From Phycisphaerae bacterium (GTDB taxonomy: Bacteria > Planctomycetota > Phycisphaerae > Sedimentisphaerales > SM23-30): DNA of 33,681 nt. Below the pieces are notes generated by a model, which saw only the letters and a list, made by a program, of their open reading frames with translations, had not been told where the DNA came from and searched no databases. Where the stretch lies: the NCBI GenBank assembly GCA_016342495.1, contig JAEIOG010000056.1, forward strand, positions 1 to 33,681, written 5' to 3'. Made by a program: the position numbers and the translations under genes. Positions 8,515 through 31,268 of the stretch are shown one piece after another (the stretch's first letter is position 1; each line of letters starts with the position of its first letter).

Positions 8515-8581
8515 AACGAACTCCTTATAAGATTACTTATATCTATTGTGAATTTTTTGTAAAATTTGTGTTACTTACGTT

Positions 8582-10048: not shown

Positions 10049-10117
10049 TTTTTTATTCCATTAAATTTTGTTCAATCATCAAGAAAATTTCCAGAACATT
10101 CTGAATTTAATTCTTCT

Positions 10118-10147: not shown

Positions 10148-10314
10148 TATAAAATGAAAATGTCGTAAAATGACAATTTTGTTGGGTGAAATTGTTGTTT
10201 TTTAAAAAACACAAAATTTATATTTTTTTATTATACCTAAACCGGTATTGTGAAATACTTATTGTAATGCATTATGAACAATTAATAAATTCATATTTTA
10301 TTGTAAGGAAAAAG

Positions 10315-13352: not shown

Positions 13353-15794
13353 TTAACGCACAATAACATCATTCACTTCTGCGTTACCATCACGATATTT
13401 TGGAATCACCAGACCTTCCTGTTCTTCCATCACATCGGTATTGCGGTCATCATTCTTTTCAACTGTGCTATTCCGTCTGGCATTATTAGTCATTCGCAGG
13501 GATTCTTCCGGCGAGCTGAGAATATGAGGAGTAATGAAAATTATCATTTCTCTTTTTATATGCTGCTTACTTGAGCTTCTAAATAAATATTTAATTAAAG
13601 GAATATCACCCAAAAACGGTACCTTATCAATATTTTCCACTATTTCATCACCTACAAAACCGCCCAGACATATCGTTTGACCATCTTTAACTCGAAGTTC
13701 AGTTGATGCTTGACGTTTTATCATTATATTAGGATTAAAGTCTCGAGAAATCTGCATCGTCTCAGCTGATATCGCGTCGATCTTTTGTACTATTTTTAAT
13801 GTTACATAGTTGTCCGGGTGAATCTTCGGGGTTACTTCCAAATCTGTCGCGACAGCTTCCCAGATTATCGCACTGCTGACAATCCCAGTAGTATTAACGT
13901 TGACACTTTTCACCAGGGGAACCTTGGAACCCATCGTTATCTTTGCCGGTGAATTATCCTTGGTCGTCAAGTGTGGCCGGGATATAATATCAACCTTTCC
14001 GCTTTTCTCCATCGCGTTAAGATATACTTTAAGATTATCGCTGATAATTTGATAGCTCAATCCGGTGTTTGCGGTCTTAGCATTAAAATTCTGCTCCATT
14101 GTAAATGGTATAACTTCCCCTTTACGTTCAGTATCACCCACAAAATTCCAGTCAACCCCAACATCTATCTGATTATCATTAGAAACCTGTGTTATATAAA
14201 CATCAATAAAAACCTGTTTGCGTGGCTGATCCAGCTCATCAATAATTTCCAACAACTTAGGAAAATTACGAGAAAATGTCCTGACAATTATCCCGCTGCG
14301 CTCGGTATCCGGCACTATCGTCAATTCCCCCGATGCCACTATCGATAATGATTTACCCAAACGCTCTGCATCGCCGACTTCGGCAAATCCCCCATCTATT
14401 AATGCATCCTGTATCATTTCCGGCGAACTCATTAGCATCGAAGTTGCCCCGGCTCCGGAACTTGTTTCTTCATTTCTCATTTCACGTCGAACACGCTGCA
14501 ATTCTTCCGGCAATGCCTGCACATCTTTGGTGTCTTTTGGATATACATCAGTAAGCAATTTCGCTAATTTTGTCGGGTCAGCATGATTTATCTTCAAATA
14601 GCGAATTTCCATCCTGTCAACATCAAACGTTGTCTGCATCTTATCGATTTCTTCAAAAATCGTTGGCTCGCGCGTCGATATAATCAAAATATTATTCGGT
14701 GCCTTAAGTGCCGCAAACTTATCCTTTAATGCTTCGTTATTTTCCAGTAGCTTCTCAAATTCATCGGCATCCATATATTTCAGCGATACATATTTTCTCT
14801 GCATTGGTGGCTCCGGCACATCCGGTATCGCCGCTTCCATTTCTACCAGCTTCTTCTCAATCTCATTTACTACCGCTTCTGGCCCCTCCACCACAATCTT
14901 ATTCATATTCGGAACCACTATAATCAACGAAGCCTTGTTGGCCGTATTCTCTCCACTTTGCAGATACACTTCTTTCAAATATTTACAGGTTTCCTCGACA
15001 TTTAGCTTGGTGAGAGTAAATTCTTTTTTCACTATCTTGGCCACTGGCGTATTATCACCGCTTGGCGTATCTAATTGATCCTTAACATATTTTTCCATCT
15101 CTGCTATCATTGCCCGTGGCCCACGCACGATAATTGCCTTGCTGTTGGGATGTACCTCAATCAAGGTAGGAGTTGTGGTGTTTTCGTTGGCTTTTTGAGC
15201 ATAGAGCTTATCCAGAATAGATTTTACTTTAACCGGGTCTGCATATTGCAAGGGTATTGTCTGATCCTGTGAATCTTTCACTCTTTTTATCGCCACCAGC
15301 TGATCTTTCAGGGTAGCTTCAAGATTCTGCTTGCTCAATACCTCATTTAACAGCTTGACCATTCCCTGAACATCAATCATTTCTTTACTGATTAATGTTA
15401 GTGGCCCTTTAACCTGGTCTATACCTTCAAATTGCACATAATAATTTTCCGATAGCCATGAAAACAAATCTTTCGGGTCATTATCTTTATAATACAAAGT
15501 CGATTTTATTGGCTCATCGGTTTTTTTCTTCTCCGCCACCGCTGGCTTTGCCACTGGCGGGGCTTCCTTCGCCGGAGGTGTTGCCACAACCGGGGGGGCT
15601 TCTTTAGCTGGAGGTGTTGCTGGTTTCTCGGCGGGCTTTGTTTTCTCAACCACAGGTATTGCTGGTTTCTCGACGGCTTTTACTTCCTTAGCCGGTGGTG
15701 TCGCAGCTTTCTCCGTTGGCTTGGCATCCTGAGCATTAGCCAGACTAATCCCCGCTATAAATATAACCGTTAGTATAATTATGAATCTACGCAT
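13353..15794 (-). CDS. gspD: Type II secretion/type IV pilus secretin (GspD/PilQ-like)
   Basis: This 813-residue protein should form the outer-membrane ring of the secretion system. After a Sec signal peptide (about 1-21) comes a long Pro/Ala/Lys/Glu-rich stretch (about 22-97) of repeated PPAKE-type units, probably a flexible spacer across the periplasm. Three to four N-type domains (about 100-430) carry the typical V-x-P-N-x-x-K-I-x-V pattern. The C-terminal secretin domain has VPLVKS, LRVKDGQTICLGG and VPFLGDIPLIKYLF, then REMIIFITPHIL. About 50 residues follow, perhaps an outer-membrane targeting tail. It is last in the minus-strand operon, separated from the preceding lipoprotein gene by 343 bases, so an internal promoter is possible. 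Confidence 0.93.
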   Translation of the reverse strand: MRRFIIILTVIFIAGISLANAQDAKPTEKAATPPAKEVKAVEKPAIPVVEKTKPAEKPATPPAKEAPPVVATPPAKEAPPVAKPAVAEKKKTDEPIKSTLYYKDNDPKDLFSWLSENYYVQFEGIDQVKGPLTLISKEMIDVQGMVKLLNEVLSKQNLEATLKDQLVAIKRVKDSQDQTIPLQYADPVKVKSILDKLYAQKANENTTTPTLIEVHPNSKAIIVRGPRAMIAEMEKYVKDQLDTPSGDNTPVAKIVKKEFTLTKLNVEETCKYLKEVYLQSGENTANKASLIIVVPNMNKIVVEGPEAVVNEIEKKLVEMEAAIPDVPEPPMQRKYVSLKYMDADEFEKLLENNEALKDKFAALKAPNNILIISTREPTIFEEIDKMQTTFDVDRMEIRYLKINHADPTKLAKLLTDVYPKDTKDVQALPEELQRVRREMRNEETSSGAGATSMLMSSPEMIQDALIDGGFAEVGDAERLGKSLSIVASGELTIVPDTERSGIIVRTFSRNFPKLLEIIDELDQPRKQVFIDVYITQVSNDNQIDVGVDWNFVGDTERKGEVIPFTMEQNFNAKTANTGLSYQIISDNLKVYLNAMEKSGKVDIISRPHLTTKDNSPAKITMGSKVPLVKSVNVNTTGIVSSAIIWEAVATDLEVTPKIHPDNYVTLKIVQKIDAISAETMQISRDFNPNIMIKRQASTELRVKDGQTICLGGFVGDEIVENIDKVPFLGDIPLIKYLFRSSSKQHIKREMIIFITPHILSSPEESLRMTNNARRNSTVEKNDDRNTDVMEEQEGLVIPKYRDGNAEVNDVIVR

Positions 15795-16137
15795 GTTTAA
15801 TTCCTTGTTCTTTTACTATCGCTTTATTATTAATCTAAATTATTTACCAATGATTAATCACAACTCATCCGGGTGGCAAGGGTCCGCCAATAAGCGGCCC
15901 CTTGGTTTAATTCCATTTTCCATTTTACCAATATCCCAAAACAATTTTAAACCTGAAACCTAATTGTCAAAATCCAATACATTAATCAAAACAAATCCGC
16001 CTCTATCCGCCCAATCTGCGTCATCCGCGTTCTATACTCATAACTATTGAGTTTGTCCATTTTGCCTGCCTGTAAGTTTATGTCCGGCAATACTTTAGCA
16101 TTGGCTCTGCCAGATAAAATCATACCCTTTGGGTATA
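15795..16137. other. 343-base spacer with REP-like copy and degenerate tandem repeat
   Basis: This gap inside the secretion operon contains no gene. It holds a REP-like palindrome (15869-15905) and, at about 15994-16032, four imperfect units beginning ATCCGC or ATCTGC spaced 9-10 bases apart. The remainder is AT-rich, with no feature I can support. Confidence 0.55.
15869..15905 (+). repeat. REP-like palindromic repeat, copy 1
   Basis: The core CAAGGGTCCGCC, loop AATAA, then GCGGCCCCTTG (15877-15904) folds into a near-perfect hairpin, preceded by CCGGGTGG. The same unit recurs at 18053-18088 (same orientation) and 32972-33007 (inverted). This copy lies between the operon lipoprotein gene and the secretin gene. 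Confidence 0.8.
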
Positions 16138-16719
16138 TCAATAATCCAAATCATCAAAACGGATTTCTCTAAATATATTTCTCACAACATCTTTATCTTT
16201 ATATTCAAATTCAATCAATAACAGGTACCTGCCCGTTGCCATCGCATTTTCTCCCCAGCTCAATCTTAACACATAGCCATCCAGCATATTCGTCTTACGC
16301 CAATTTATTGGCAGATAGCCCGGGTGCACATCCCAACGCAGCAAAGCTTTTTCGATAACCTCTTCCTTATTGTTATTGTTTACTATTCGATAAAGCCTCA
16401 CAATTGCCTTACCCTGAATTTCTGTCACATCAAAATTTTTCAATATCGGCGTCGCAATCACCGCATAGCCATCCGCCTTACCATCAAAATTATAGTCACG
16501 ACCACCGCTTACATATCTTAAAGCAATGTCGGCAACCTTACCGCTATTATCGCTATACTGGCGATATTGGCTATAACCTAATCCATCATCCCGGCTCGTA
16601 ACTTCGATCGGCTCTGCCCATTGCTTATTTAACGAACTTTTTTGCCCATCACGCACACATCCACTCGTCAAAATAAACAAGCAGACCGAAACTAAAATAT
16701 AACTTACTCGTTTACTCAC
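16138..16719 (-). CDS. Lipoprotein with EF-hand-like loop, in secretion operon
   Basis: I do not recognise a family for this 193-residue protein. It has a lipoprotein signal (ILTSGC, Cys21), so it should be membrane-anchored in the periplasm. Residues 75-83 read D-Y-N-F-D-G-K-A-D, matching the D-x-N/D-x-D-G-x-x-D calcium loop of EF-hand and dockerin-type sites. The rest looks beta-rich and ends in FDDLDY. The start is a GTG inside a tandem octamer repeat and directly follows an in-frame stop, so no upstream extension is possible; a clear ribosome site is absent. It begins 24 bases after the gspC/pilP-like gene, so translational coupling may help. Its position suggests a pilotin-like or assembly role for the secretin downstream, which is inference from context only. 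Confidence 0.7.
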   Translation of the reverse strand: MSKRVSYILVSVCLFILTSGCVRDGQKSSLNKQWAEPIEVTSRDDGLGYSQYRQYSDNSGKVADIALRYVSGGRDYNFDGKADGYAVIATPILKNFDVTEIQGKAIVRLYRIVNNNNKEEVIEKALLRWDVHPGYLPINWRKTNMLDGYVLRLSWGENAMATGRYLLLIEFEYKDKDVVRNIFREIRFDDLDY

Positions 16720-16741
16720 TTACTCACTTACTCACTCACTT
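16712..16741 (-). repeat. Octamer tandem repeat spanning a start codon
   Basis: On the minus strand the unit GTGAGTAA occurs about three times in a row plus partial units, and the GTG start of the lipoprotein gene lies in the last one. A related octamer, GAGAGTAA, is repeated three times at about 31984-32008. Slipped-strand change in copy number would move any upstream ribosome site relative to the start. Confidence 0.7.
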
Positions 16742-16743
16742 AT

Positions 16744-17457
16744 TTATAATTTATCAGAATTATCCTGCCGGGCCGTTGGTTCGATTGCTATCTCAAAACC
16801 ATCATCATATCGCAAAATAACCTTTCCAGTTTCAATTTTCACTACGGTTGTATCGCTAAGCCGGTCACCTACTTCTACTCGCCAGCGTCTCCCATCAATT
16901 AATACCAGTGCAAAAGCTTCTTTATTGCTAACAGATATTGCCGTCAGTTCATAATCTACTCCATAGCCTTTAAGTCTTTTTAATGCGTCATCGCTTGTTT
17001 CACCTACATCTATTCTTACCGCTTCTTTACCATATAAACATCGAATATAGGTGTTATGGATTTCTTTGATTTCGACAATCTCAATCAATTCTCCCACTTT
17101 CACCGACCGACGCTCACTGGGATTCTCAAACAGCAAATGTGCCACCTTCTGCTTATCTGTCCCACTAAAACCTACCAGCTTAAAAGGGCGATTGAGCTTA
17201 TTTCTCTCATCTTCTTTTTTATTCGTATCGGATTTATCCATGATACTTACCTGGGGCTTTTTCTTGGGCTCAAACATATTCTTAGCCACCAGAGCTTCTT
17301 TCATCTCCTCTATCTTTGGCTCGGTGACCTCCTGTTTCTTTTCTTCAACTTTTTGACCGTCGGCAGATTCCAGACTTTTAACTTCTGCTTTCTCTTCAGC
17401 TACGCAAACAGTTGGCAGCCACAATAGTATTAACAATAATAGTGCTGAATATCTCAT
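16744..17457 (-). CDS. GspC/PilP-like inner-membrane/periplasmic secretion protein
   Basis: This 237-residue protein starts with a hydrophobic signal or anchor (about 1-20), then a highly charged Lys/Glu linker (about 21-85) containing a KNMFEPKKKP motif. Next comes a beta-rich region beginning FKLVGFSGTDKQKVAHLLFE, the pattern of the homology domain of GspC and PilP. A second repeat-like half (LVLIDGRRWRVEVGDRL) follows. Such proteins link the inner-membrane platform to the secretin N domains. Its ATG overlaps the TGA of the PilO-like gene (ATGA), so the two are translationally coupled. Whether it is closer to GspC or PilP cannot be decided by eye. Confidence 0.68.
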   Translation of the reverse strand: MRYSALLLLILLWLPTVCVAEEKAEVKSLESADGQKVEEKKQEVTEPKIEEMKEALVAKNMFEPKKKPQVSIMDKSDTNKKEDERNKLNRPFKLVGFSGTDKQKVAHLLFENPSERRSVKVGELIEIVEIKEIHNTYIRCLYGKEAVRIDVGETSDDALKRLKGYGVDYELTAISVSNKEAFALVLIDGRRWRVEVGDRLSDTTVVKIETGKVILRYDDGFEIAIEPTARQDNSDKL

Positions 17458-18023
17458 GGTAATATTTCTCCAACTTTAGTTTCTGTGTTGGTTTTGACTG
17501 CTGGTATGGAAACCGTCAAGTTTATCGTTAGATCTGGCTCTATCGAATATATTGAACTTTTCTTTTTGGTTATATCTAATTTTTCTATTCGTAGCAGTCT
17601 TTCAGAATTATCCAGTTGGCTTAAAAATTCTGACAAGGAATAAAGATCGCTTGAAAATGTCAAATTATAGCTTAATGTCTGGTATTTGCTCGCTTCTTTC
17701 ATGGGCTGTTCGGTCGGTTCACTTAATACTTCAAAAGTAATTCCCTGACTGCTGCCCAAACCTTGCAGATATGATGTGAACTTCGTACGTCTTTCTCCTA
17801 TTGGCTCATCTTTAAATTCGCTGATAGATTCCCATTTGTCGACATATCCCCGATTTGAATTCTTGAGTTCTTCTATTGCTACCAATTCTTGTTGTTCATC
17901 TCTGATTTGATTATCTTTATCTTTTAAACGGTCTATCATCTTCATAGTGATCCATTGGCCCAGTGAACCTGACACCACTATCGCGATAAAAACCATTAAT
18001 ATTATTGTCTTCTTACTTTGCAT
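17454..18023 (-). CDS. PilO/GspM-like inner-membrane protein
   Basis: From the ATG at 18023 the protein is 189 residues: a transmembrane helix (about 5-24), a coiled-coil-like charged stretch (about 30-65), and a ferredoxin-like periplasmic domain with SLSEFLSQLDNSERLLRIEKL, the pattern of PilO proteins. It should pair with the PilN part of the upstream protein in the inner-membrane platform. The frame stays open upstream to 18074, but that part lies in a REP-like repeat (18053-18088), so it is not taken as coding. An ATG at 18047 is an alternative start with AGGA nearby. It overlaps the next gene by 4 bases. Confidence 0.78.
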   Translation of the reverse strand: MQSKKTIILMVFIAIVVSGSLGQWITMKMIDRLKDKDNQIRDEQQELVAIEELKNSNRGYVDKWESISEFKDEPIGERRTKFTSYLQGLGSSQGITFEVLSEPTEQPMKEASKYQTLSYNLTFSSDLYSLSEFLSQLDNSERLLRIEKLDITKKKSSIYSIEPDLTINLTVSIPAVKTNTETKVGEILP

Positions 18024-18052
18024 TAACTTATACCTGCTCGTTCCCATTGTAT

Positions 18053-18088
18053 CCTGGGTGCAAGGGGTCGCCAATAGTGGCCCCTTGG
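18053..18088 (+). repeat. REP-like palindromic repeat, copy 2
   Basis: CAAGGGGTCGCC, loop AATA, then GTGGCCCCTTG (from 18061) is preceded by CCTGGGTG. It matches copies at 15869 and 32972 with a few substitutions. It sits in the 90-base gap between the pilM-N and pilO-like genes, so a hairpin would form in the operon mRNA. Confidence 0.78.
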
Positions 18089-18113
18089 CTTATTTTATCC
18101 ATATCACATATCG

Positions 18114-19595
18114 TTACCGCACCAGTGTACTTATGTCTGCATCCTGCTTCCTCACACAAGTAACAGAAAATCTATTCGGATAAAATTCATCTCCTACCTC
18201 ACGTAACAATGGACCTGCCTGTCGGGCATCCTGGAAAAAAACCGAACCGTTTAACTTTTCGATAAATTTATTGATAATGTCACCTTCACGGATTCTTCCG
18301 CTGATTTTTATTTCATAATCGCCATTGATACTGCTCTTACTCACATTGAAATTGGTAATATAAGCATCCACCGTGTCGGGAAACTGATTGTTTATCTCAT
18401 ATAATATTCGCAGATAGCTGGTTCTATTGCCATCTTTTTTCTTAGACAGATAGCTGTTAAATAAATTGAAACTGCTTTTGGCATCTTCAATTTCTTTTAT
18501 TTCTGGCGCCATATTTTTTATTTTATCTTCCAGCTCGGCCAGTTGCGTATTTCTTTGTTCCATCAGGCTCAGCCAAAAAGTCAACGCCAGCAATATTGCC
18601 GCAATAAAAGCCACTAATGCTGGCTTCCAGCTGATCGGATGTTTTTTCTCTGGCTGTTTACCCCGCGGATGTAGCATATCAAACCAGGTTGGTGTTAATG
18701 ACAGACCGTCCAGAGCCGCGCCAATTGCTGGCACAAATCCATTGGTGCGACCTTCAGGGGGTTTCTCATCCCATTTCAGGCCTACCGGTTCATAGCATAC
18801 TTGTGTTATTACCCCAAGTCTTTCATTTAATATCTCGCATGCCTGGCCTAACTGCCCATTATTGGCATCGCGACTGCACAATAATATCAGCTCCGGCCAA
18901 AAGCCATCCCCTGATAATTTCATCGTATTAAATACCGCTGGCAATCCGTTAGCCAAGCCTTCGACTATGTCTTTATTGCCCAAACCCAGGTTTTGTATCG
19001 ATAGTAAACCCTGATTGTCCATCATCGCGACAGTACACTGATTATCTTGCTGATATGCAATTGCGATATTTTCCTGCTCCGATTGACTCCAGTTGCCCAG
19101 CAGGCCGTTAATGCCTGCCATCGACCTCAGTTCAATTCCGGCCAGTTTCAGGTCGGCTTCTGACGCTATTTCTTTGCATCGCTCCACCTGATCTTTTTGA
19201 CAGGCCGCTATCAGCACCACATGCTTTCCGGTATTTTCAAATAGATACCCAGGTCTCACCCAGAAATCCAGTATCAAATCATCACTTGCGATTCCAACCG
19301 AATTCCGGGTATGTTCCAGCAGTTTGGCTATTTCTTCTTTTTTACTGACAGATTCTCCGGAAATTTCATATCTTTTCACAAAGCCAAGATTCTCAGGTAG
19401 AGATATCACTACGCTTTGTTTTTGTAAGTTGCGTTTCTCCAGTTCATGTCTTAACAGCATCCCCATTTCGCTGCTGCTTTGCCCTTGTTGGCTGCTGTAT
19501 GGTATCTCAAAAGCATTGCGCACCACTACTCCGGAGCCTTTGCTCTTGATATTTACCACTCGTAATCGATTGTCTCCGTAGTCTATTCCTAGCAT
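18114..19595 (-). CDS. Fused PilM-PilN (GspL-like) platform protein
   Basis: The N-terminal half (about 1-300) is an actin-like PilM domain: it opens LGIDYGDNRLRVV, has the VVISLPEN segment, and ends in VPAIGAALDGL, matching the nucleotide-binding fold of PilM. A single transmembrane helix follows at about 326-345 (WKPALVAFIAAILLALTF), then a coiled coil and a PilN-like periplasmic domain (RILYEINNQFPDTVDAYITN) to the end. Separate PilM and PilN would be two genes in type IV pilus operons; one chain resembles GspL of type II systems. It should connect the GspE ATPase to the PilO-like protein. The start is ATG at 19595; a GTG directly before it is equally possible. Confidence 0.85.
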   Translation of the reverse strand: MLGIDYGDNRLRVVNIKSKGSGVVVRNAFEIPYSSQQGQSSSEMGMLLRHELEKRNLQKQSVVISLPENLGFVKRYEISGESVSKKEEIAKLLEHTRNSVGIASDDLILDFWVRPGYLFENTGKHVVLIAACQKDQVERCKEIASEADLKLAGIELRSMAGINGLLGNWSQSEQENIAIAYQQDNQCTVAMMDNQGLLSIQNLGLGNKDIVEGLANGLPAVFNTMKLSGDGFWPELILLCSRDANNGQLGQACEILNERLGVITQVCYEPVGLKWDEKPPEGRTNGFVPAIGAALDGLSLTPTWFDMLHPRGKQPEKKHPISWKPALVAFIAAILLALTFWLSLMEQRNTQLAELEDKIKNMAPEIKEIEDAKSSFNLFNSYLSKKKDGNRTSYLRILYEINNQFPDTVDAYITNFNVSKSSINGDYEIKISGRIREGDIINKFIEKLNGSVFFQDARQAGPLLREVGDEFYPNRFSVTCVRKQDADISTLVR

Positions 19596-19610
19596 CACTC
19601 ATTCTTCAGG

Positions 19611-19690
19611 TACGGTGGGCTATGCCCACACTGTTAAAATTGGTAGGATGGGCTTTGCCCATGCTGTTAAAACCACGTCGCAAAGCGACA
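19611..19690 (-). repeat. Composite palindromic repeat (GGGC-type), copy A
   Basis: Three palindromes lie in a row: GTGGGCTATGCCCAC (19615-19629), ATGGGCTTTGCCCAT (19648-19662) and GTCGCAAAGCGAC (19677-19689). Read on the minus strand, the order GTCGC, GTGGTTTTAA, CAGCATGGGC, GCCCATCCTACCA matches 29066-29118 almost base for base, and 32013-32064 more loosely. This copy lies between gspE and the pilM-N gene. Confidence 0.8.
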
Positions 19691-19710
19691 CCACTTTCTG
19701 AAATCTAAAA

Positions 19711-21459
19711 CTAATCAAGAAATTTCTTCATCTCTATTCTTTCCTCTCGCGCCACCCGATAAATTTCTGCCAGGCTCGTTCTGCCATTTTTAACCAGCTC
19801 AAGCCCGCTTTTATGCAGAGTTCTCATTCCCTGACCGATTGCATAGTCTTTTACCGTAACCGCATTGTCTCGATTCAGAATCATTTGCCTGATATTATTA
19901 TCTATCGTAAACATTTCAAAGATCGCTGTCCTGCCGATAAACCCGCTATGGCGGCATCGCCCACAGCCTTTGCTTTCATAAAGGTCATTTATTCCATTTA
20001 ACTCCGCAATATCTTGTCCCAACGAGCTATCTGTCATCGCGACTTTCTTTTTGCAATGGCTACATAATTCCCGCACCAGCCTCTGGGCTACAACTGCTTC
20101 CAGTGCCGATGAAATCAAATATGGCTCGACCCCCATTTCCATCAATCTTGCCGGTGCCGATGTTGCGTCATTGGTATGTAATGTACTAAATACCAAATGA
20201 CCGGTCATCGCCGCCGATACCGCTATTTGCGCTGTATCTCTATCTCGAATCTCACCTACCATTATTATATCCGGGTCATGCCTTAATATACTTCTTAATA
20301 CATTAGCAAAAGTCAAATCAATTGAAGGTTTTACTTGTATCTGACAAACACCTTCCAGCTGATACTCTATCGGATCTTCCACTGTTAGTATCTTTCGGTC
20401 AGATCGGTTGATTTCCTGCAAAGATCCATAAAGTGTTGTAGTTTTCCCGCTTCCCGTTGGTCCGGTAACTAAAACCACGCCATGACTTATTCCTAATACT
20501 CTTCGATATAACTCTAAATAATCATCGGGCATACCGACGCGATTCAAATTCAAAAATGCCAGCTGCCGATCCAGCAAACGTAATGCCAGCCCCTGGCCAA
20601 ACATTGTTGGCAATATCGAAACCCGAATATCAATTGGGCGGTTAGCTATTTCAATTCTTATCTGACCATCCTGAGGCAATCGCTTTTCGGCTATATCGAG
20701 GTTGGCCATAATCTTAATTCGAGATATTATCGCCGCTTCCAGGTGTTTAATATTTTCAGGAACCGGTTCATTTTGCAGCATACCATCTATTCGGTATCGA
20801 ACCCGCAGTTTATTTTCAAAAGGTTCAAGGTGTATATCACTTGCCCCGGCCTTGACAGCTTCTATTAAGAGCTGATTTACAAACTTGATTATCGCCGCTT
20901 CATCATCATGTGATTCTACAGCATCATTTTCCAGGATTTCCCGTCCGACTAAATTGACATCTAAACCGCTGGCATTGCTGCCATCCAGCATATCTTCAAC
21001 AGTTTCTGCTCCCAGGCCATAGAGTCTTTTTATCATTAGGGCAATATCGCCTGGTAGTGCCAGACGGGCTCTTATGATTAGTCCATTTTTTATGTTTTCC
21101 CGGACATATCGCTGCTGTGACAGCAATAATGATAATTCCTGACATTTTTCAAATTGTTGCGGGTCGGCTACTGCTATTTCCAGATTATTGTCATCCAGCG
21201 ATAAGGGCACAATTGAATATTCATGCGCTAATCGCGCTGGCACAATACGCACTAACTGATTTGTAGGTTTGACTTTATGGGGGTCGACCAGTTTAACCTG
21301 GAGATATTCAGCTAAGCTTTGCCAGATACCATGTTCTTTATCTGGGAAATCTCTAAGCAACCTATAGTATAATGGCTCATCGCTGGCAACCTGGTATTTT
21401 TTACCTTGATGCGCTTCAATGACTTGTTGTTCTACCAGAAATGTAAGTAAATCTGCCAT
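19711..21459 (-). CDS. gspE: Type II secretion/pilus assembly ATPase GspE
   Basis: This roughly 582-residue hexameric ATPase powers the secretion or pilus machine from the cytoplasm. It has the T2SSE N-terminal domain (about 45-150), then the ATPase domain: Walker A GPTGSGKTT (about 333-341), an Asp box TVEDPIEY, and Walker B IIMVGEIRDRD (about 398-408). Four zinc-binding cysteines are present at about 466, 469, 499 and 502 (CSHC and CGRC), the hallmark of GspE/PilB rather than PilT. The start is uncertain: ATG at 21459 has AAGGAG 14 bases upstream, whereas an in-frame GTG at 21474 overlaps that site. It is the first gene of the minus-strand operon. Confidence 0.94.
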   Translation of the reverse strand: MADLLTFLVEQQVIEAHQGKKYQVASDEPLYYRLLRDFPDKEHGIWQSLAEYLQVKLVDPHKVKPTNQLVRIVPARLAHEYSIVPLSLDDNNLEIAVADPQQFEKCQELSLLLSQQRYVRENIKNGLIIRARLALPGDIALMIKRLYGLGAETVEDMLDGSNASGLDVNLVGREILENDAVESHDDEAAIIKFVNQLLIEAVKAGASDIHLEPFENKLRVRYRIDGMLQNEPVPENIKHLEAAIISRIKIMANLDIAEKRLPQDGQIRIEIANRPIDIRVSILPTMFGQGLALRLLDRQLAFLNLNRVGMPDDYLELYRRVLGISHGVVLVTGPTGSGKTTTLYGSLQEINRSDRKILTVEDPIEYQLEGVCQIQVKPSIDLTFANVLRSILRHDPDIIMVGEIRDRDTAQIAVSAAMTGHLVFSTLHTNDATSAPARLMEMGVEPYLISSALEAVVAQRLVRELCSHCKKKVAMTDSSLGQDIAELNGINDLYESKGCGRCRHSGFIGRTAIFEMFTIDNNIRQMILNRDNAVTVKDYAIGQGMRTLHKSGLELVKNGRTSLAEIYRVAREERIEMKKFLD

Positions 21460-21495
21460 GATATTTTTGGGCACTCCTTGCCGTTCAGCCTTTTT

Positions 21496-21754: not shown

Positions 21755-22540
21755 ATGAATAATTTAGAAAATGAAAATGTGATAGTAGCTGATGAACTGA
21801 GCAAGACGTTTTTAGCTGCTAAGAATAGAGTCGTGGAAGCTGTTAAGAAAGTGTCGTTTTCAGTGGGAAAAGGGGAGATTTTCGGGCTTTTGGGGCCAAA
21901 CGGGGCTGGTAAGACCACTTTGTTGCGGATGATAGCTACTATTATTACCCCGAGTGAGGGGGAGTGTTTTATAGATGGGAAGAGGTCTGATATCGACCCG
22001 CAGGGGGCGCGGCGTGACATTGGGTTCTTGTCTGGTAATACCAGACTGTATGGCCGCCTGTCTGCTCGGGAGCTGTTGAAATATTTTGGCAGGCTTTATA
22101 GTATGGAAGAAGACAAAATAAATCGGCGGATCGAGGAGTTGGTTGAGCTTTTGGATATGGGAGAATTTATTGATCGCAAGTGTGAATCATTTTCTACCGG
22201 CCAGACGCAACGTGTTTCTATAGCTCGAGTTATATTGCATGACCCAGCGGTTTTGATATTGGATGAGCCAACTTTGGGGCTGGATATTATGACCAGCAGG
22301 ACGATTCTGGACTTTATTTTGGAAGCTAAGAATCGTGGCCATAGCATTATTTATTCGACTCATTATATGACAGAGGCAGAGCTTTTGTGTGACCGGATCG
22401 GTTTTATTTATGATGGTTCGATTTTGGCATTAGGGCCAAAAGAGCAGATTTATGGTGAAACTGGAACGTCCAATTTAAAAGATGCTTTTTTGAAATTAGC
22501 TGATGACGCGGATATAGCCAAAGGCGAGGTGGCTGTTTAG
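21755..22540 (+). CDS. ABC-2 type exporter ATPase (NatA-like)
   Basis: From the ATG at 21755 this is a 261-residue ABC ATPase. Walker A GPNGAGKTT is at about 47-55, the signature FSTGQTQRVS near 150, and Walker B VLILDEPT near 165; a switch histidine follows in IYSTHYM. Overall it resembles NatA-type ATPases of ABC-2 exporters. Its natural partner is the NatB-like permease at 29229, now 6.7 kb downstream on the same strand. The start is uncertain: the frame is open back to 21638, with another ATG at 21695, but neither start has a clear ribosome site and similarity to the family begins after 21755. Confidence 0.9.
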   Translation: MNNLENENVIVADELSKTFLAAKNRVVEAVKKVSFSVGKGEIFGLLGPNGAGKTTLLRMIATIITPSEGECFIDGKRSDIDPQGARRDIGFLSGNTRLYGRLSARELLKYFGRLYSMEEDKINRRIEELVELLDMGEFIDRKCESFSTGQTQRVSIARVILHDPAVLILDEPTLGLDIMTSRTILDFILEAKNRGHSIIYSTHYMTEAELLCDRIGFIYDGSILALGPKEQIYGETGTSNLKDAFLKLADDADIAKGEVAV

Positions 22541-22814: not shown

Positions 22815-25775
22815 ATGAATAAAAGAGTTTTGATAAATATTTTAATTTTATTATCCATTTTTGGTGTGGTGGCTGTTGCGGATATATCGGTGGATGATCC
22901 GGTATATCAGCGGCTGGTGCAGAAGTATTCGAAACCAACAAATTATAGTTCAAGTAGATGGAAATCTTTCCTCTTGACTCATCAATTACGCGTGAATAAT
23001 TCAATTCCTGTACAATTTTATGGCAGAGTTGTAGATCAAAAAGGGCAAGGGGTTCAAGGGGTTAAGGTAAGGGCTGTTTGGCATATATATAATGAAGATT
23101 TCATTAAGGAAACTATCGATGCCTATAATTTATTAAAAACCAAAGCTTGGCTTGAGGTGAATTGGCCTTTAGAATTTTCATACAAAATCATTGCTGTTGA
23201 AACTGATAAAGATGGATGTTTTGTTGTAGATGGCCCTCAGCGTCATGAGTTGACGATTTTATGCCAGAAAGATGGGTATTTTGAACCTCAGAAAGATTTG
23301 ACATTTTTCTTTTCTGAACCAAAAGATGAAAAGACACAGGCTCAAAAATATACATATGAGGATAAATCTCCCCATATTGTTGCTATGTGGAAAAAGGCTG
23401 CTAAAATGCCTCGGTTGAAGGAAAAAATTCTAAGCCCCATAGGCAGTAAAAAAACAGAAACTAAGCTCTATGTCAATATGAGTAAAGGGGTCTTTTTAGA
23501 AACTGAATTTAATAATGCTAATTTTACCGTCGAGATTAAGGCAAGTGAAAATAAGATAATATTCAAAAGTAAAGATTATTCTTTTGCAGAAGTCAAAGAT
23601 GAATTTGGTTTTGGAGCTCCTGTGAACGGGTATGCAAATCATTTCACCTTTGTTCCCCAAAATCATGCTGAATTGTTGCCAGCGGTTTATATCAAAACAA
23701 AAGATGGGCTTTTCGGTCTTGTAAAAACAAATTGGACAAAGCGTTCTCGTGATGGATTTTGGAGTATCGAGGGGAAAATAATATTAAATCTTGATGGTCA
23801 AAGAAATCTGGAAGATTATAGTAATTCAACTATTAATAGAGGTTGCTTTGGCACTTGGATAAAGGAATTCTCATTTGTTAAAAAATATAATAACAACATG
23901 AAAGACTGGGGAGAGCGGGTAGTTAAGGCAAAAGAACTTAAGGCGCAAAATAAACCAATCGAATTTTATGGTAAAATCATAGATGAATCAGAACAACCGG
24001 TATCAGGATTAGTGGTTAAAGCTAGATACCGCCGAGAGCATGAGAAATATTTTGACCTACCAATTAAACAAGATAATTTAGACCCTGATGCAAAGTTATA
24101 TTCCATAGATGAAACTTACAATGGTTTTAATGTAACCTCATATGTATACGAGACAGTGAGTGGTGAAGATGGCACTTTCTGTATTAGAGGTATCAGTGGA
24201 GCTTACTTGACCATAGAACTACAAAAACATAACCATAAATATGTAGAGCCTGTTCAGCATATTTCTAAAATGGTAGCTATACAGGGAACGTCTACTGATA
24301 AGCCCTTTAAATTATTTTTCAATACCAAAGTAAACCAGGCTAAAGAAAAACGAGATCAGGATTTTGCTGCTATTTCGCTCGAAGATTTAGAGAAAGAATT
24401 TTCCGATGTCAAAAAACCAGATTCAGTACCTGTTGATGTTTGGAAGCGATTAATCTTGAGTCACAAGCAGGCATTGAGTAGTATGGCTCCCGAAGTGTTT
24501 TGTGGTAGAGTTTTGGACCAGTTTGGCAATTCAGTTAAAAATGTAAATGTACAAACTTATTGGCAAATTTATAATAAAAACTTTTTGGTTGATTCTTACG
24601 ATACTCTTAAAAATACCAAACCTGGCCAACGACCTCATTATGGGAAAGTAAGGATTGACGTACTCATCGAAGCGGTAACAGATGAAAATGGTTATTTTTT
24701 AGTGAAGGGAGCTGATGACAGGAGGGTCGTGGTTGCTTTGCAAAAAGATGATTATTTTTCGCTTAAGCCTAAATCTTTTAGTTTTGATAGGGAATTAGTC
24801 GGTGGTGAAGAGATTTCTTTTTCACCATTCAATCCTCAACTTTTCCATGTATGGAAAAAATCTGACAATAGGCCTCATTTGATCATAGGCAAACATTATG
24901 CAATGGATTTTGCTGATCCTGCCAAAAAAGTGTTTCTAGACTTAAAAGAGAAAATTATTCATAATGAAGCTGAAAAGGATTTTGATCTTTCTATTGAATT
25001 AGTTAAAAATGAAAAAGAAAAACATCTCATTTTGCGTGCTAATAATGGTGGTTTTGCTGAAGTTGAAGATGATTATGGTTTTGGTATGTCTGGCTTGAGT
25101 TATATAGACGAATATGCTTATGTCTTGGATGATAGTAGCCTTAAAATAAAACATTATGTGAAATCTAGAGATGGAAAGCACTATAGTTTTATTGAATTAT
25201 ATGTGAGTATTAAAAATGATGCTATTAGTGCTATCAGTGTTACAAGCATTCTCAATCCAGATGGAAAACTTGATTTGCAGAACTATTTTAGTGATAAGGT
25301 GGCTACTGTATCTTCCTTGGGGCATGAGGTGTTGATTAAAAAGTATCCTCAATTATCTAAACCAGATGGGGTTGATAGAGAGGTCTGGAGAATGAGATTG
25401 TTCCAAGCTGTATATGATTTAGATGAAAACAAGCCGATAGAGTTTTATGGGCAGGTTGTTGATGATTCTGGCAAGCCATTAGACAAAGTCGATGTTAGAT
25501 ACTTTGTTTTTGGTCATAGTATTGATGGAATTAAATCATTTATTGAAACAGGGGAAAAAGCAATATCTCGAGAGAAGGCAGAGAAAGTGTATACTGATGA
25601 GCAGGGCCATTTTTGTATTAGAGGAATTGATGGGTATGGATTAGATGTTAGGTTGAGTAAAATAGGTTATACTGCTATTAGAAGCCATGAAATTACTATA
25701 TTAAAAAATGAAATTATTGTACATGGAACTTGTAAAGATCATCCTATGCAATTTATTATGAAAAAAGATGGGTGA
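22815..25775 (+). CDS. Exported repeat protein, duplicated A-B-A architecture (paralogue 1)
   Basis: I cannot assign a function. The 986-residue product has a signal peptide (about 1-21, ending VAVA-D). It then shows beta-sandwich-like A domains with F-Y-G-x-V-V-D-x-x-G and T-D-x-x-G-x-F-x-V motifs, like carboxypeptidase-regulatory or other surface Ig-like domains. These alternate with B domains that begin near a V-W-K-K motif and end in I-L-N-x-D-G. Rough layout: A1 45-170, B1 185-340, A2 355-505, A3 520-665, B2 673-825, A4 835-986; the protein is thus two tandem A-B-A halves of about 500 residues. It is related to the two following genes, which have one A-B-A unit each. The ATG at 22815 has no strong ribosome site. 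Confidence 0.78.
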   Translation: MNKRVLINILILLSIFGVVAVADISVDDPVYQRLVQKYSKPTNYSSSRWKSFLLTHQLRVNNSIPVQFYGRVVDQKGQGVQGVKVRAVWHIYNEDFIKETIDAYNLLKTKAWLEVNWPLEFSYKIIAVETDKDGCFVVDGPQRHELTILCQKDGYFEPQKDLTFFFSEPKDEKTQAQKYTYEDKSPHIVAMWKKAAKMPRLKEKILSPIGSKKTETKLYVNMSKGVFLETEFNNANFTVEIKASENKIIFKSKDYSFAEVKDEFGFGAPVNGYANHFTFVPQNHAELLPAVYIKTKDGLFGLVKTNWTKRSRDGFWSIEGKIILNLDGQRNLEDYSNSTINRGCFGTWIKEFSFVKKYNNNMKDWGERVVKAKELKAQNKPIEFYGKIIDESEQPVSGLVVKARYRREHEKYFDLPIKQDNLDPDAKLYSIDETYNGFNVTSYVYETVSGEDGTFCIRGISGAYLTIELQKHNHKYVEPVQHISKMVAIQGTSTDKPFKLFFNTKVNQAKEKRDQDFAAISLEDLEKEFSDVKKPDSVPVDVWKRLILSHKQALSSMAPEVFCGRVLDQFGNSVKNVNVQTYWQIYNKNFLVDSYDTLKNTKPGQRPHYGKVRIDVLIEAVTDENGYFLVKGADDRRVVVALQKDDYFSLKPKSFSFDRELVGGEEISFSPFNPQLFHVWKKSDNRPHLIIGKHYAMDFADPAKKVFLDLKEKIIHNEAEKDFDLSIELVKNEKEKHLILRANNGGFAEVEDDYGFGMSGLSYIDEYAYVLDDSSLKIKHYVKSRDGKHYSFIELYVSIKNDAISAISVTSILNPDGKLDLQNYFSDKVATVSSLGHEVLIKKYPQLSKPDGVDREVWRMRLFQAVYDLDENKPIEFYGQVVDDSGKPLDKVDVRYFVFGHSIDGIKSFIETGEKAISREKAEKVYTDEQGHFCIRGIDGYGLDVRLSKIGYTAIRSHEITILKNEIIVHGTCKDHPMQFIMKKDG

Positions 25776-25789
25776 TATTTATATAAATA

Positions 25790-25870
25790 AGAAGGAATAT
25801 TTGGTTTTTGGTGCAGGGGTCATCGGTGAAGTATCCGGTGGAATTGGTTTTGAGTGAAAATGAGTGAGTT
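25790..25870 (+). pseudogene. Remnant 3' end of a lost paralogue
   Basis: The spacer between paralogues 1 and 2 is a near copy of the last 90 or so bases of paralogue 3 (28910-29004). Both share GGAATATTTGGTTTTT, GGTGCAGGGGTCATC, and TTGGTTTTGAGTGAAAATG followed by AGTGAGTT. Relative to paralogue 3, 14 bases are missing after the first block. The fragment leads straight into the ATG of paralogue 2, so it marks a deletion or unequal crossover in the array. Confidence 0.82.
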
Positions 25871-27454
25871 ATGAATAAAATAAATCTAATAAATATTATG
25901 ATGTTGGTTGCCTTTTTCGGGGCTATTGTGGTTGCAAATATATCGGTGGATGATCCGGTATATCAGCGGTTGGCGCAGAAGTATCCGGAGCTTAAAAAGC
26001 CGGATGGTATACAGCAGCTTGATTGGCGAATTTTTTTACGGTCTTATGATGAGTATTTGGAGGCTTCAAAAACTCCATTGGTATTTCATGGGCAAGTTGT
26101 TGATCAGGATGGCAAGGGGGTTGCTGGGGTATTGCTTCAAACTGAATATGTGAAATATGAACCGATTGATGTTATTAAAATTGATAAGCGACGTGATTAC
26201 CCTATGCATGAACAGCAATGGATTTATCAGGAAATAGAGACAGATGCTGAAGGGAAGTTTGAGATTGATATGTCTAGTTCATTATGGCTTAAAATCGCAT
26301 TTGGGGATACTGAAGAATATTGTCTGCCGAATCAGAAAAAAGTTTTTAGCTTTAATTATAAGGAAGTTCGAAAAGGCAAATATATAGGCAATGCGGATAG
26401 CCCGGTGGTATTTGACTTATGGAAATATTCTGGAGATTGGCCTTATCTTGTAAAGTATTCTGGTTTTAAATCGAGATTAGGATGGAAAAAAGGGGATGGA
26501 CTGATTTATTTTGATCTTGTTAATCGCAAGAGATCATTAGAGAAGCCTCAGCAGTATGATTTTACCATAGAAGTTGATATGGATAATAATAGTATCGAAA
26601 TGAGTGTTCCAGAGGGAGGCGTAACAGACGCTAAAACGCTGTTTCCTTTTCGTGCACCGGATGTGGGCTATGTTCAGAATAGAACTTTTGTGGTAAGAAA
26701 TACAAGATTAAATGATAGTGGCAAAAGCAATATATATGTTAAGTCGAGAGTGGGTTTATGCCATTCTTATCTGGAATTGTCATACAGATTTTACGGTGAT
26801 GAATGTATAGTCGGTGCAGCAGTGGTTCTAAATCCCAATCGAAGTACAAATCTGGAAGATATTAATTATAAAGTTAGGCATGATAGCGATTCAATACCAA
26901 AGGTTGCGGGTAAGCTATATAAAACTTATCCGGATTTAGTAAAGCCTGAAGGAATGCCAGATTCTCGCTGGATAAGTAAACTTGCAAGTATCAAAGAAGA
27001 AATGGAAATGAATAAACCTATTGATTTCTATGGCAGAATAGTTGACCGTGATGGTAAGTCAATATCTGATGTTCAAATTAATGCTTCTTATAAGATGGTT
27101 GACCTTGAATTGGTCAAGGCCAGTATCAGCAATCCTGACCTTAAAGAGCCTAAGTACAAATCAGGACAAGTGAAAACCAAAACAGATGAAAATGGTATTT
27201 TTGTTATTAAGGATATTGAATGTTATTATTTGGGACTTGAACCATCCAAGCCTGGCTATAGTTTCGGTTACGACAATGATCTAACCCGGGTAGAACTTGG
27301 CATGATCATATCACAAGCTATGACTGATGGAAGGCTTGATAAGCAGCGAACCAGTTATGAACATCCAGTAGATTTTGAGGTTTCTCTAATAAAGAATCTT
27401 CCAAAAGATACGAAGGAGCCAGAGAAACCTCGCGGTGGTGGCTGGTTTGATTGA
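25871..27454 (+). CDS. Exported repeat protein, single A-B-A unit (paralogue 2)
   Basis: This 527-residue exported protein has unknown function. The signal peptide (about 1-22) ends in VVAN, and the next residues ISVDDPVYQRL are identical to paralogue 1; 32 bases here (25938-25969) match 22882-22913 exactly. A domain: VFHGQVVDQDGKGVAGV near 71 to about 165. B domain: from VFDLWKYSGDWP (about 177) to VLNPNRSTNLED (about 318). Second A domain: IDFYGRIVDRDGKSISDV near 384, with TKTDENGIFVIKDIE. The C-terminus carries an extra charged, Pro/Gly-rich tail ending RGGGWFD, absent from the paralogues. The gap to paralogue 3 is 47 bases, so cotranscription is likely. Confidence 0.78.
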   Translation: MNKINLINIMMLVAFFGAIVVANISVDDPVYQRLAQKYPELKKPDGIQQLDWRIFLRSYDEYLEASKTPLVFHGQVVDQDGKGVAGVLLQTEYVKYEPIDVIKIDKRRDYPMHEQQWIYQEIETDAEGKFEIDMSSSLWLKIAFGDTEEYCLPNQKKVFSFNYKEVRKGKYIGNADSPVVFDLWKYSGDWPYLVKYSGFKSRLGWKKGDGLIYFDLVNRKRSLEKPQQYDFTIEVDMDNNSIEMSVPEGGVTDAKTLFPFRAPDVGYVQNRTFVVRNTRLNDSGKSNIYVKSRVGLCHSYLELSYRFYGDECIVGAAVVLNPNRSTNLEDINYKVRHDSDSIPKVAGKLYKTYPDLVKPEGMPDSRWISKLASIKEEMEMNKPIDFYGRIVDRDGKSISDVQINASYKMVDLELVKASISNPDLKEPKYKSGQVKTKTDENGIFVIKDIECYYLGLEPSKPGYSFGYDNDLTRVELGMIISQAMTDGRLDKQRTSYEHPVDFEVSLIKNLPKDTKEPEKPRGGGWFD

Positions 27455-27501
27455 GAATTGTTTTAAATAAGAAGAATAGATTATAAATATTGCGAGAGAT
27501 T

Positions 27502-29001
27502 ATGATTAAAAGAAATATTATTTCCATATTATTGTTATCGTTTTTATTAACAGTATATGTCAATGCTGCCAATGATGGAGCTGATTTGGTTAAGCCTGAG
27601 AAATTAGATGATAAGCTGTGGAAAGCATTGCTAGGTCAACATGAAAAATTTTCACAAGATTGCGTTCCAGCATTTTTTTATGGCAAGGTTATTGACCAGG
27701 ACGATAAAGCAGTTGTGGGCGTAGATGTTTTAGCTGTGTGGGATAAATATAAATGCGAAGAGATTCAGTCAATAGTGCACACCATAGCGAATGATAAGGG
27801 TAAATTTAAAGGCGATGGTGATTATGTGTTTTTTGAAGATAAAGCTGAAACTATAAAAACTGATGTCAATGGTTGTTTTAAGGTGGAAATGGGGCAAAGC
27901 CATGGTCTGGTGTTAAATGTGAAAGATAAAAGATATTTGCCGCCATTGAATAATCGAGCCTTTAGCTTTGCCAAACATCGATATAGATATAAGCTAAATG
28001 AATCTACTGCTGATAATCCAACAGTTTTTAAAGTATGGAAATTATCTGGAGAAAAGCATTGTTTGATAAGAAATGAATTTGACTTTAATAATAGTAAGAT
28101 AGAAAAATTATATATTGATTTGTTTAATAAAACAATCGAGAGTGAAAAGCCTGACCAATATGATTTTTCGATAAAATATGATGTCAATAGTAAGAATTAT
28201 TTATTTGAGTTCCCTAATGGCGGTATTGTTGAAATGTCATCTGATTCTGAATTTCCTTTTAGGGCGCCAGAAAATGGATATCAGGCAAAATATACATTGA
28301 CGCCTGATTCTAAACTAATTAGGCGATATTTTTATGCTAAGTCAAGAGATGGCCAATATTATAGTTCTTTATATATTAATTTGCAGCCTGGCCGTGGTGC
28401 TCAAAGACCAAGTTTGCAAATTATGAGCGTTTTGAATCCTGATGCATCAAGAAATCTGGAAGATCGGCTGAGCAAATCTTATAATGTGACGGGATATATG
28501 GAAAAAGTTACTTCGCTCTATGAATTGCAACATGATTTTCCTGACAAGAAAAAACCTGCTGATATTGGCCTTAAAGAATGGGAAAGTTTATTGTATCGTG
28601 AATCAATTATTATAGCAAATGCAAATCAAATTGAATTTCATGGTAAAGTATTAGATACAAATGGGGTGGCGGTCTCTGGCGAGAAAATAAGGATTTCATA
28701 TAAATCTTTTAATGAAAATTATCGAGAGACATTAGGGAAAATGAGAAAAGAATTAAAAAGGCCATTGAACGAATCAGAATTAAATGATGCTATTTCTCCG
28801 AAGAAGAAATTGGAAGTTGTTACTGATGCAAATGGTTGTTTTGTAGTAAGTGGGATTGAAGGGGAGGAGATGGCGATTATGCCTGATGATGCGAAATATT
28901 TTGTTAATGGGAAGGAATATTTGGTTTTTAAGAAGGATGTTTTGGTGCAGGGGTCATCTGCTAAACATCCGGTTAAATTGGTTTTGAGTGAAAATGAGTG
29001 A
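27502..29001 (+). CDS. Exported repeat protein, single A-B-A unit (paralogue 3)
   Basis: This 499-residue exported protein belongs to the same family. The signal peptide is about 1-22 (LLSFLLTVYVNA). The first A domain has FFYGKVIDQDDKAVVGVDV near 55 and TDVNGCFKVE. The B domain begins VFKVWKLSGEKH (about 175) and ends VLNPDASRNLED (about 315). The second A domain has FHGKVLDTNGVAVSGEKI near 380, TDANGCFVVSGIEG, and ends HPVKLVLSENE. The ATG at 27502 is preceded by GAGAG; a TTG 12 bases upstream is also in frame. The base sequence after its stop (GAGTGAGTTGTGAATAATAG) resembles the start of another paralogue with its ATG changed to GTG, so the array seems to have once continued. Confidence 0.76.
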   Translation: MIKRNIISILLLSFLLTVYVNAANDGADLVKPEKLDDKLWKALLGQHEKFSQDCVPAFFYGKVIDQDDKAVVGVDVLAVWDKYKCEEIQSIVHTIANDKGKFKGDGDYVFFEDKAETIKTDVNGCFKVEMGQSHGLVLNVKDKRYLPPLNNRAFSFAKHRYRYKLNESTADNPTVFKVWKLSGEKHCLIRNEFDFNNSKIEKLYIDLFNKTIESEKPDQYDFSIKYDVNSKNYLFEFPNGGIVEMSSDSEFPFRAPENGYQAKYTLTPDSKLIRRYFYAKSRDGQYYSSLYINLQPGRGAQRPSLQIMSVLNPDASRNLEDRLSKSYNVTGYMEKVTSLYELQHDFPDKKKPADIGLKEWESLLYRESIIIANANQIEFHGKVLDTNGVAVSGEKIRISYKSFNENYRETLGKMRKELKRPLNESELNDAISPKKKLEVVTDANGCFVVSGIEGEEMAIMPDDAKYFVNGKEYLVFKKDVLVQGSSAKHPVKLVLSENE

Positions 29002-29065
29002 GTTGTGAATAATAGAATATTGTTCTATTGATGTTTTGGGTGTCTGGCAGAAGGTGCAAGTTATT

Positions 29066-29228: not shown

Positions 29229-31268
29229 ATGAATACAAAAGTAATATTAACGATATTGAAAAAAGAACTGCTGGAAACTTTGCGGGATAAGCGGACGCTG
29301 ATTGCTATGATTGGGATACCGATTGTGTTGTATCCGCTGCTGTTTTTGGGGGTGGCCCAGGTGGCGGTGCATGAGCAGGTGAAGTTGCAGAAGCAGAATT
29401 CACGGGTTGCTTTGGTTGGCGATAGCAGCGAGATAATCAAAGGGTGGCTGGCTGAAACTGAAAAGGTTGAGATTGTTGAGACGGAGTCAGCAGAGCAGGA
29501 TCTTAAAAATGGTGATGTTGATGTTATAGTTAAGATCGAAAGTGATATCGATGAGACATTATTAGATAATAAGACGGTGGCAATTAAACTCGATTATGAT
29601 AATACTGTACCTCGCAGTCAAAAAGCAACTAATCGATTAGGTAAAGCAATAAGAGAAAAATCGGCGGAATTATTGAATCAGCGGCTGGAAAAGCAGGGGC
29701 TGGATAAGGAATTTTCCCAGCCATTGAGAACAGAAGTAAATGATATTGCTCCGCCAGCGAAGACGACCGGGTCGATGTTGGGGCGGATATTGCCGATGCT
29801 GATGATTATTATGCTGGGGGTAGGTGCGTTTTATCCGGCGGTGGATTTGACTGCTGGGGAAAAGGAACGCGGGACATTTGAAACATTGCTATCGACGCCA
29901 GCGGCGAAATCGGAAATTGTCTGTGGGAAGTTTTTGGCGGTGTTTGTCTTAGCGATGATAACGGCGATGCTGAACCTGGCATCGATGGGGCTGACAATAT
30001 CATCACAGGTATCAATGATGGCTGGAGCTGAAGGTCAGGGAGTTGGTGGTTTGGATATAAGTTCATTGCAGATAAGCTTTGGCAATATCATGGTATTTTT
30101 TATTGTGCTGCTGCCATTGGCGTTTTTTATCTGTTCGGTAATGATGGGGATTGCGATGCTGGCCAGGAATTTCAAGGAAGCTCAGAATTATATCAATCCG
30201 TTTTATATGATGATTGTGCTGCCAGCGATGTATGCATCGATGCCGGGGGTGGAACTGAATGCGACGACGCAATTGATACCGATTACCAATGTGGCATTAT
30301 TGTTTAAGAAAATGCTGATAGGTGAATTTGTGGCTCAGGAAGTGATAATGGTGCTGTTGAGTACGGTATTTTTTGCGGCATTGGCACTGGTAGGGGCGGT
30401 GGCGATATTCCAGCGGGAAGATGTGATATTAAGCCAGGAAAAGGGGATGCCATTTACATTGAATCGGAAGGCATTTGTGCCATCGCTGCGGCCCACGATG
30501 GGTTTGTCATTTGCGATGTTCCCGATTGCGATGCTATTGTCGTTTTATGTTGGTCAGTATTTACAGACTTGTGATTTTGTCAGCGGGGTGATATTGACTC
30601 AATATGGATTGTATGCGGGGCTGCCGATTGCGATTTTGATATATATCAAGGTGAATGTGAAAGAAACGCTGAGTTTGAAGATGCCAAAGGTTTCGGATGT
30701 GATAGTAGTGCCGTTCATCGCTTTGGCTTCGATAGTATTAGTTAACTTGTATGCGGGGTTACAGGGTAAGTTTATCGAAGTACCTGAAGCTTTTGAAGAA
30801 ATGATGCAAGTAATTTTTGACAAACATAACTTAGGGGTGCTAATATTTGTTGTAGCGGTAACGCCAGCGATATGTGAAGAGATATTGGCTCGAGGCATAA
30901 TAATGGCCGGCTTGAAAGGGCGAATGCCTGATTGGGCGACGATTTTGCTGGTGGGGATGATGTTTGGCGCTATGCATATGGTAATATCAAATATTATCCC
31001 GACGGCATTGCTGGGGATGGTTATCGCCTACCTGGTATTGCGGACTGGCTCGATTTTTGTTGGGATGCTGTTCCATTTTATAAATAATGGATTTAGTGTG
31101 CTGGCTGAGAAAAAAGCATTGCCGGAAGGTTTGATGATTTTTTTGGAGAATATCGAAAAGAGCCAGGGCGGGATGGTTTTGCTGGTTGGTGTGGCGGTGA
31201 TTGTATTTGTGGTTTGTGTGGTGGTGATTGAGGCAGGGCATAGGAAGAAGTTAACAGTGAAAAGTTAA
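29229..31268 (+). CDS. ABC-2 exporter permease fused to CPBP intramembrane protease
   Basis: This protein has about 679 residues. The N-terminal part is a NatB-like ABC-2 permease: cytoplasmic start with ELLETLRDKRTL, first helix, a long extracytoplasmic loop, then five or so helices with the DLTAGEKERGTFETLL motif typical of the family. The C-terminal part (from about 530) is a CPBP (CAAX-type) protease domain with EEILARG (EExxxR), FGAMH (FxxxH) and HFINN (HxxxN), all catalytic or metal motifs present. Such fusions are known; the protease may process or protect against the exported substrate. The ATG at 29229 has GGAAAG upstream; a TTG at 29217 is less likely. Its expected partner is the ATPase at 21755. 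Confidence 0.92.
   Translation: MNTKVILTILKKELLETLRDKRTLIAMIGIPIVLYPLLFLGVAQVAVHEQVKLQKQNSRVALVGDSSEIIKGWLAETEKVEIVETESAEQDLKNGDVDVIVKIESDIDETLLDNKTVAIKLDYDNTVPRSQKATNRLGKAIREKSAELLNQRLEKQGLDKEFSQPLRTEVNDIAPPAKTTGSMLGRILPMLMIIMLGVGAFYPAVDLTAGEKERGTFETLLSTPAAKSEIVCGKFLAVFVLAMITAMLNLASMGLTISSQVSMMAGAEGQGVGGLDISSLQISFGNIMVFFIVLLPLAFFICSVMMGIAMLARNFKEAQNYINPFYMMIVLPAMYASMPGVELNATTQLIPITNVALLFKKMLIGEFVAQEVIMVLLSTVFFAALALVGAVAIFQREDVILSQEKGMPFTLNRKAFVPSLRPTMGLSFAMFPIAMLLSFYVGQYLQTCDFVSGVILTQYGLYAGLPIAILIYIKVNVKETLSLKMPKVSDVIVVPFIALASIVLVNLYAGLQGKFIEVPEAFEEMMQVIFDKHNLGVLIFVVAVTPAICEEILARGIIMAGLKGRMPDWATILLVGMMFGAMHMVISNIIPTALLGMVIAYLVLRTGSIFVGMLFHFINNGFSVLAEKKALPEGLMIFLENIEKSQGGMVLLVGVAVIVFVVCVVVIEAGHRKKLTVKS

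Follow-up and report, generated by a model that had tools for sequence, protein, structure and literature searches.

A tandem array of predicted exported proteins in a Phycisphaerae bacterium pairs a transthyretin-like domain with an unnamed domain family

We analyzed a stretch of 33,681 nucleotides (here called the window), which is the entire contig C5 of a draft genome of 5.42 Mb in 221 contigs. Another genome of the order, G027, carries the protein of Anaerohalosphaeraceae bacterium SMBSF06, and the order is accordingly Sedimentisphaerales (class Phycisphaerae, phylum Planctomycetota). The window contains an array of three genes that is real and intact. Half of the encoded sequence is a common domain (A), and the other half is a homologous family that has no name (B). 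We favor, at even chances, the reading that the array is a set of locally amplified exported cell-envelope proteins, periplasmic or on the surface, which were diversified by tandem duplication and would act in binding. This role is favored because the proteins carry export leaders, have a modular beta architecture and were diversified in tandem.

All three genes lie on the plus strand. Gene 1 (positions 22815 to 25775; open frame 22788/22815) codes for 986 amino acids, gene 2 (25871 to 27454) for 527, and gene 3 (27502 to 29001; open frame 27490/27502) for 499. The intergenic gaps are 95 bp between genes 1 and 2 and 47 bp between genes 2 and 3. Gene 1 contains two repeat units (units 1 and 2), and genes 2 and 3 contain one each (units 3 and 4). 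Segment comparison placed the four B domains, all on the plus strand, at 23373 to 23828, 24837 to 25295, 26405 to 26872 and 28021 to 28476 in units 1 to 4, respectively, and B profiles matched all three genes. The open frames and an end-to-end alignment of the units agree with the preliminary description, in which three adjacent genes encode four A-B-A units. In this alignment, 42 columns are invariant and the other units are 27 to 30% identical to the third. Compared pairwise by segment, the units are 22 to 39% identical, with shuffle z-scores of 7.8 to 15.0 for B, 8.2 to 17.8 for the first A and 7.9 to 14.2 for the second A. Given the local base composition, the probability that 2012 codons would stay open by chance is about 10 to the power of -75 (log10 P ~ -75), which indicates that the array genes have been maintained.

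The motifs described earlier (FYGxVVDxxG, TDxxGxFxV, VWK and LNPDxxxNLED) were all found. In addition, a conserved linker, KPxxxxxxxWxxxL (L), precedes both A domains of each unit. Because the linker stands before every A, the unit is better written L-A-B-L-A. Gene 1 thus reads as a leader and one such unit fused to a second, while genes 2 and 3 each encode a leader and a single unit. Each of the three genes begins with a hydrophobic leader that, judged by eye, resembles a Sec signal peptide; no lipobox was seen. Together with the adjacent genes on one strand, these leaders fit the initial view of exported proteins encoded in a tandem array.

Gene 1 had been described as an internal duplication. 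The presence of two units in this gene stands, but a recent duplication does not, and the gene may instead have arisen by the fusion of two genes. The best segment scores joined B of unit 2 with unit 4, the second A of unit 2 with unit 3, and the first A of unit 1 with unit 3. Units 1 and 2 do not pick each other as best match in any segment, so their duplication or joining is old, about as old as the array. Unit 2 has no leader but keeps a stretch (..ISxxD..) similar to the one found after the leader of units 1 and 3, as would be expected if two neighboring genes had been joined.

The A domain turned out to be less novel than had been claimed. It corresponds to CarboxypepD_reg (PF13620), a common and well-known transthyretin-like domain. 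PF13620 matched gene 1 with an E value of 9.9e-13 and 48.7 bits (cut-off, 32.3); genes 2 and 3 scored 20.0 and 18.2 bits, under the cut-off, and both align with gene 1 throughout. An A-type match in another genome (G013) was rejected as an unrelated multi-TTR protein. We then considered an AlphaFold model of the A-B-A region of gene 3, which is of low confidence (pLDDT 63.8; pTM 0.52) and in which strands are predicted, with modest confidence, in both A regions. Foldseek matched this model to CNA-B pilins, the NTE domain of SusC and catechol dioxygenases, with low global TM-scores; these matches were dominated by A and carried little information on B. Array A is therefore described here as a predicted transthyretin/CNA-B-like beta-sandwich.

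For B, the claim that it belongs to no known family held at the level of sequence in Pfam, NCBIfam and the PDB. No Pfam family matched consistently among 13 B domains, no NCBIfam model matched across B in the window proteins, and the best PDB match by sequence had an E value of 0.012. The domain has a recognizable signature (GG..., AP..GY, YVKSR.G..YSR and NPDGSRNLE); apart from a few G, Y, N and L positions, its alignment contains no conserved pocket signature. Modeled alone, B of unit 4 was predicted to be all-beta, with pLDDT values of about 75 to 90 over most of its length (overall pLDDT 75.7; pTM 0.72). In a Foldseek search of viral models, one unnamed match fell below 1e-3, and phage fibre-type proteins stood below it in the list. 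Against the PDB, the best match was 8b6a, BfrB of Bacteroides fragilis (E value, 1.9e-3; TM-scores, 0.59/0.54). The same protein is named HmuY-Bf-2 in PMC12106395, where it is reported to lack iron coordination. This top match raises the idea of B as a hemophore-like domain of the HmuY family, with array proteins that capture heme or porphyrin; we regard this as highly improbable. The E value of 8b6a is not below 1e-3, the other HmuY structures named in PMC12106395 are absent from the top 50 Foldseek matches, Pfam gave no match of B to the HmuY family, and B has no conserved His or Met column. As the match is weak and 8b6a stands alone among HmuY structures, we do not claim a hemophore.

We built the B family stepwise, from the four units to G027, then to contig C148 of the same genome and G180, and then to G506, which was reached with the codon pattern of NPxGSRNLE. 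The resulting profile (A6) added G728, G730, G733, G736 and G738, and it detected B relatives in 7 of the 161 genomes of the order. A further profile (A8) added G347 and G312, so that 5 of 392 genomes of the phylum, including the genome of the window, gave matches; that of G312 had an E value of only 0.004. G224 was marginal (E value, 0.009); its sequence nevertheless shows a leader of the lipoprotein type together with an A-like region and a B-like tail. As iteration can make profiles drift, the profile was rebuilt without the window sequences. This window-free profile recovered genes 1, 3 and 2 with E values of 7.1e-15, 1.2e-13 and 1.3e-7, and one made from the more distant members only still matched the window genes (5.8e-9, 4.4e-8 and 1.1e-4). 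Recovery of the window genes by a profile from other genomes indicates that B is a true homologous family. Where we speak of a genome lacking B, we mean that it gave no match at the thresholds used, and the family is divergent. On this basis, the B family appears sparse and scattered in Planctomycetota. A pattern scan of genome contigs returned only a metagenome-assembled genome (MAG) of Anaerohalosphaeraceae; the pattern was narrow and is no measure of spread. No relative was found among viral contigs, and a translated search of a plasmid collection with three relatives gave no match. Similar A-B proteins are probably common in Verrucomicrobiota.

The relatives have signal-peptide or lipoprotein-type leaders, with A before B. 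An A-B layout was found in G027, C148, G728 (with the linker), G736, G738, G506, G347 (as a tandem pair) and G312. Only G180 has A-B-A-B, with a long N-terminal region, and in G730 B stands without an evident A. The A-B-A pattern, which had been proposed for the family, is therefore not its layout, and L-A-B-L-A was seen only in this window. What all four array units and nearly all relatives share is an A directly before B. The gene neighborhoods of the relatives had nothing in common that points to a ligand.

The array is flanked by the genes of an ABC transporter. On its 5' side lies a natA-like ATPase gene (21757 to 22540, plus strand, in a frame open from 21638; Pfam ABC_tran, 1.3e-32; NCBIfam drrA/GldA-like), and on its 3' side lies a natB-like permease gene with a fused CPBP protease domain (29232 to 31268, plus strand; NCBIfam NF041647, E value 2.8e-220). 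Further 5' of the array, the window holds genes for a sulfatase, GH78, GH95, an alpha-galactosidase, a SASA esterase and GH2 (331 to 13251), a cluster resembling a polysaccharide-use locus. Adjoining the array, on the minus strand (13353 to 21474), are secretin, PilO/T2SSM-like, PilM/PilN-like and GspE genes, a cluster of the type II secretion or type IV pilus type. The window contained no RNA families or tRNAs, and promoter-like sites were no more frequent than expected by chance.

Given its position on the same strand between natA, which ends at 22540, and natB, which starts at 29232, the array proteins could be substrates of the NatA/NatB-CPBP transporter or additional subunits of it. We consider this quite improbable. 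The natA-natB pair is complete without the array in a genome of the same family (G004), no B homologue elsewhere was seen beside natAB, and gaps of 274 bp (to natA) and 230 bp (to natB) set the array apart from both transporter genes. In G004, the only relative that shows this arrangement, the two genes are contiguous (they meet near position 5382 of L037); in the window, 6.7 kb separates them, with the array in between. The array also differs from its flanks in composition: its GC content is 0.34 to 0.38, compared with 0.44 for natA and 0.45 for natB, and its GC3 is 0.27 to 0.31, compared with 0.38 and 0.51. The simplest reading would be that natA and natB were separated by an insertion, with tandem duplication; alternatively, the block may have been lost in G004.

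The spacer between genes 1 and 2 (25776 to 25870, plus strand) holds a non-coding remnant that resembles the 3' end of gene 3. It bears two direct repeats, D7 (25779 to 25809 versus 28899 to 28929, 84%) and D4 (25806 to 25883 versus 28940 to 29017, 87%). This copy of the gene 3 end records recombination or a deletion between copies. A further element, on contig C6 (L014:1498-1800), has a leader-like start followed by an out-of-frame tail of the second A, by which we identify it as a decayed copy of an array gene. An apparent transposase remnant lies upstream of it. This decayed copy, the patchy presence of the B family and the occurrence of an integrase-type gene, of a transposase or of a REP-type transposase near relatives would all suit the view that duplication and mobile DNA produced the array as a by-product and that it now serves no selected function in the host. 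Such an origin is nevertheless rather unlikely, as all three frames have stayed open across 2012 codons and can still be aligned at about 30% identity, which requires long purifying selection.

A different role is suggested by Rhs genes in other genomes. In G027 and G736, genomes from two separate families, the second gene downstream of an Rhs core is a member of the B family, and in G736 no other Rhs core was found in the genome. At these loci (L024:9240-11888 and L052:2-2826), an Rhs C-terminal gene is followed by a gene for 157 to 158 amino acids and then by the B-family gene. About 0.03 such cases would be expected, and the probability of at least two is about 5e-4, a post hoc estimate based on approximate genome sizes. 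In the genome of the window there are 36 Rhs-core matches, on contigs C12, C60, C86, C111, C143, C153 and others. Many of these are short frames that share a contig, which suggests that orphan Rhs C-terminal cassettes form islands.

B proteins might accordingly be immunity proteins that act outside the cytoplasm, the array being a bank of divergent paralogues against the toxins of neighbors. Polyimmunity loci and proteins of polymorphic toxin systems have been described, the proteins being mostly cytoplasmic (PMC3482391), and the array resembles those loci in its single strand, its 95- and 47-bp gaps, its divergent paralogues and its double-unit protein. We hold this reading to be unlikely. 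In both cases a smaller gene immediately follows the Rhs gene and is the better immunity candidate, the sequence read at most of the other B loci contains no Rhs core, and the window itself contains no Rhs gene. Moreover, the immunity proteins identified are cytoplasmic in all but a few cases, and extended loci of four or more genes were found only in other phyla (PMC3482391). The Rhs link concerns 2 of about 14 B loci and was noticed after the fact; we treat it as a lead. Its more specific form, which places B at the core of an exported, Rhs-linked immunity family in Planctomycetota and sees in the window an exported polyimmunity array whose TTR-like domains present several B domains, is somewhat more doubtful still.

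According to the favored model of exported binding proteins, a Sec-type signal peptide would carry each protein out of the cytoplasm. There, the transthyretin-like A domains and the linkers would serve as rigid beta-sandwich spacers, and the all-beta B would contact a ligand or partner. Four divergent units, probably of different specificity, would have arisen through old tandem duplication, the fusion of two units within gene 1, and recombination or deletion among the copies, and an insertion would have placed the block in a transporter operon, between its natA and natB. Binding proteins of varied specificity, as first proposed, are plausible, although the missing pocket signature in B and the lack of a shared gene neighborhood among relatives count against the model. 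Beyond this role, B is an unnamed domain with a recognizable signature that present profile libraries miss, thinly spread in a poorly characterized phylum, and the array illustrates how a gene of this kind can be multiplied, fused and placed inside a transporter operon. Should the Rhs link prove true, it would also be a pointer to exported immunity in Planctomycetota.

The array can be compared with several known systems. Its A domains match CarboxypepD_reg (PF13620) by sequence and at the level of fold; they differ in a long insertion between strands and in their pairing with B. Sortase-pilus CNA-B proteins (FimP, BcpA, SpaA and others) headed the Foldseek list for the A-B-A model and share stacked beta-sandwich domains and export. 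However, global TM-scores were only about 0.15 and no LPxTG-type sorting signal was seen in the array proteins, so the likeness is that of the A fold. To HmuY-family hemophores (8B6A), B shows a weak overall fold match, with neither a sequence match nor conserved heme ligands. Polyimmunity loci (PMC3482391) share tandem divergent paralogues, short gaps and a multi-unit protein with the array, which differs in being exported rather than cytoplasmic and in having no toxin link in the window. Finally, planctomycete A-B proteins, such as that of the Anaerohalosphaeraceae MAG (JAIORA010000012.1; 359 amino acids), have a single A and a single B, with no second A and no tandem array, but share with the array proteins a leader, A and then B with YVKSRDxxxYSR ... 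NPDGSRNLE.
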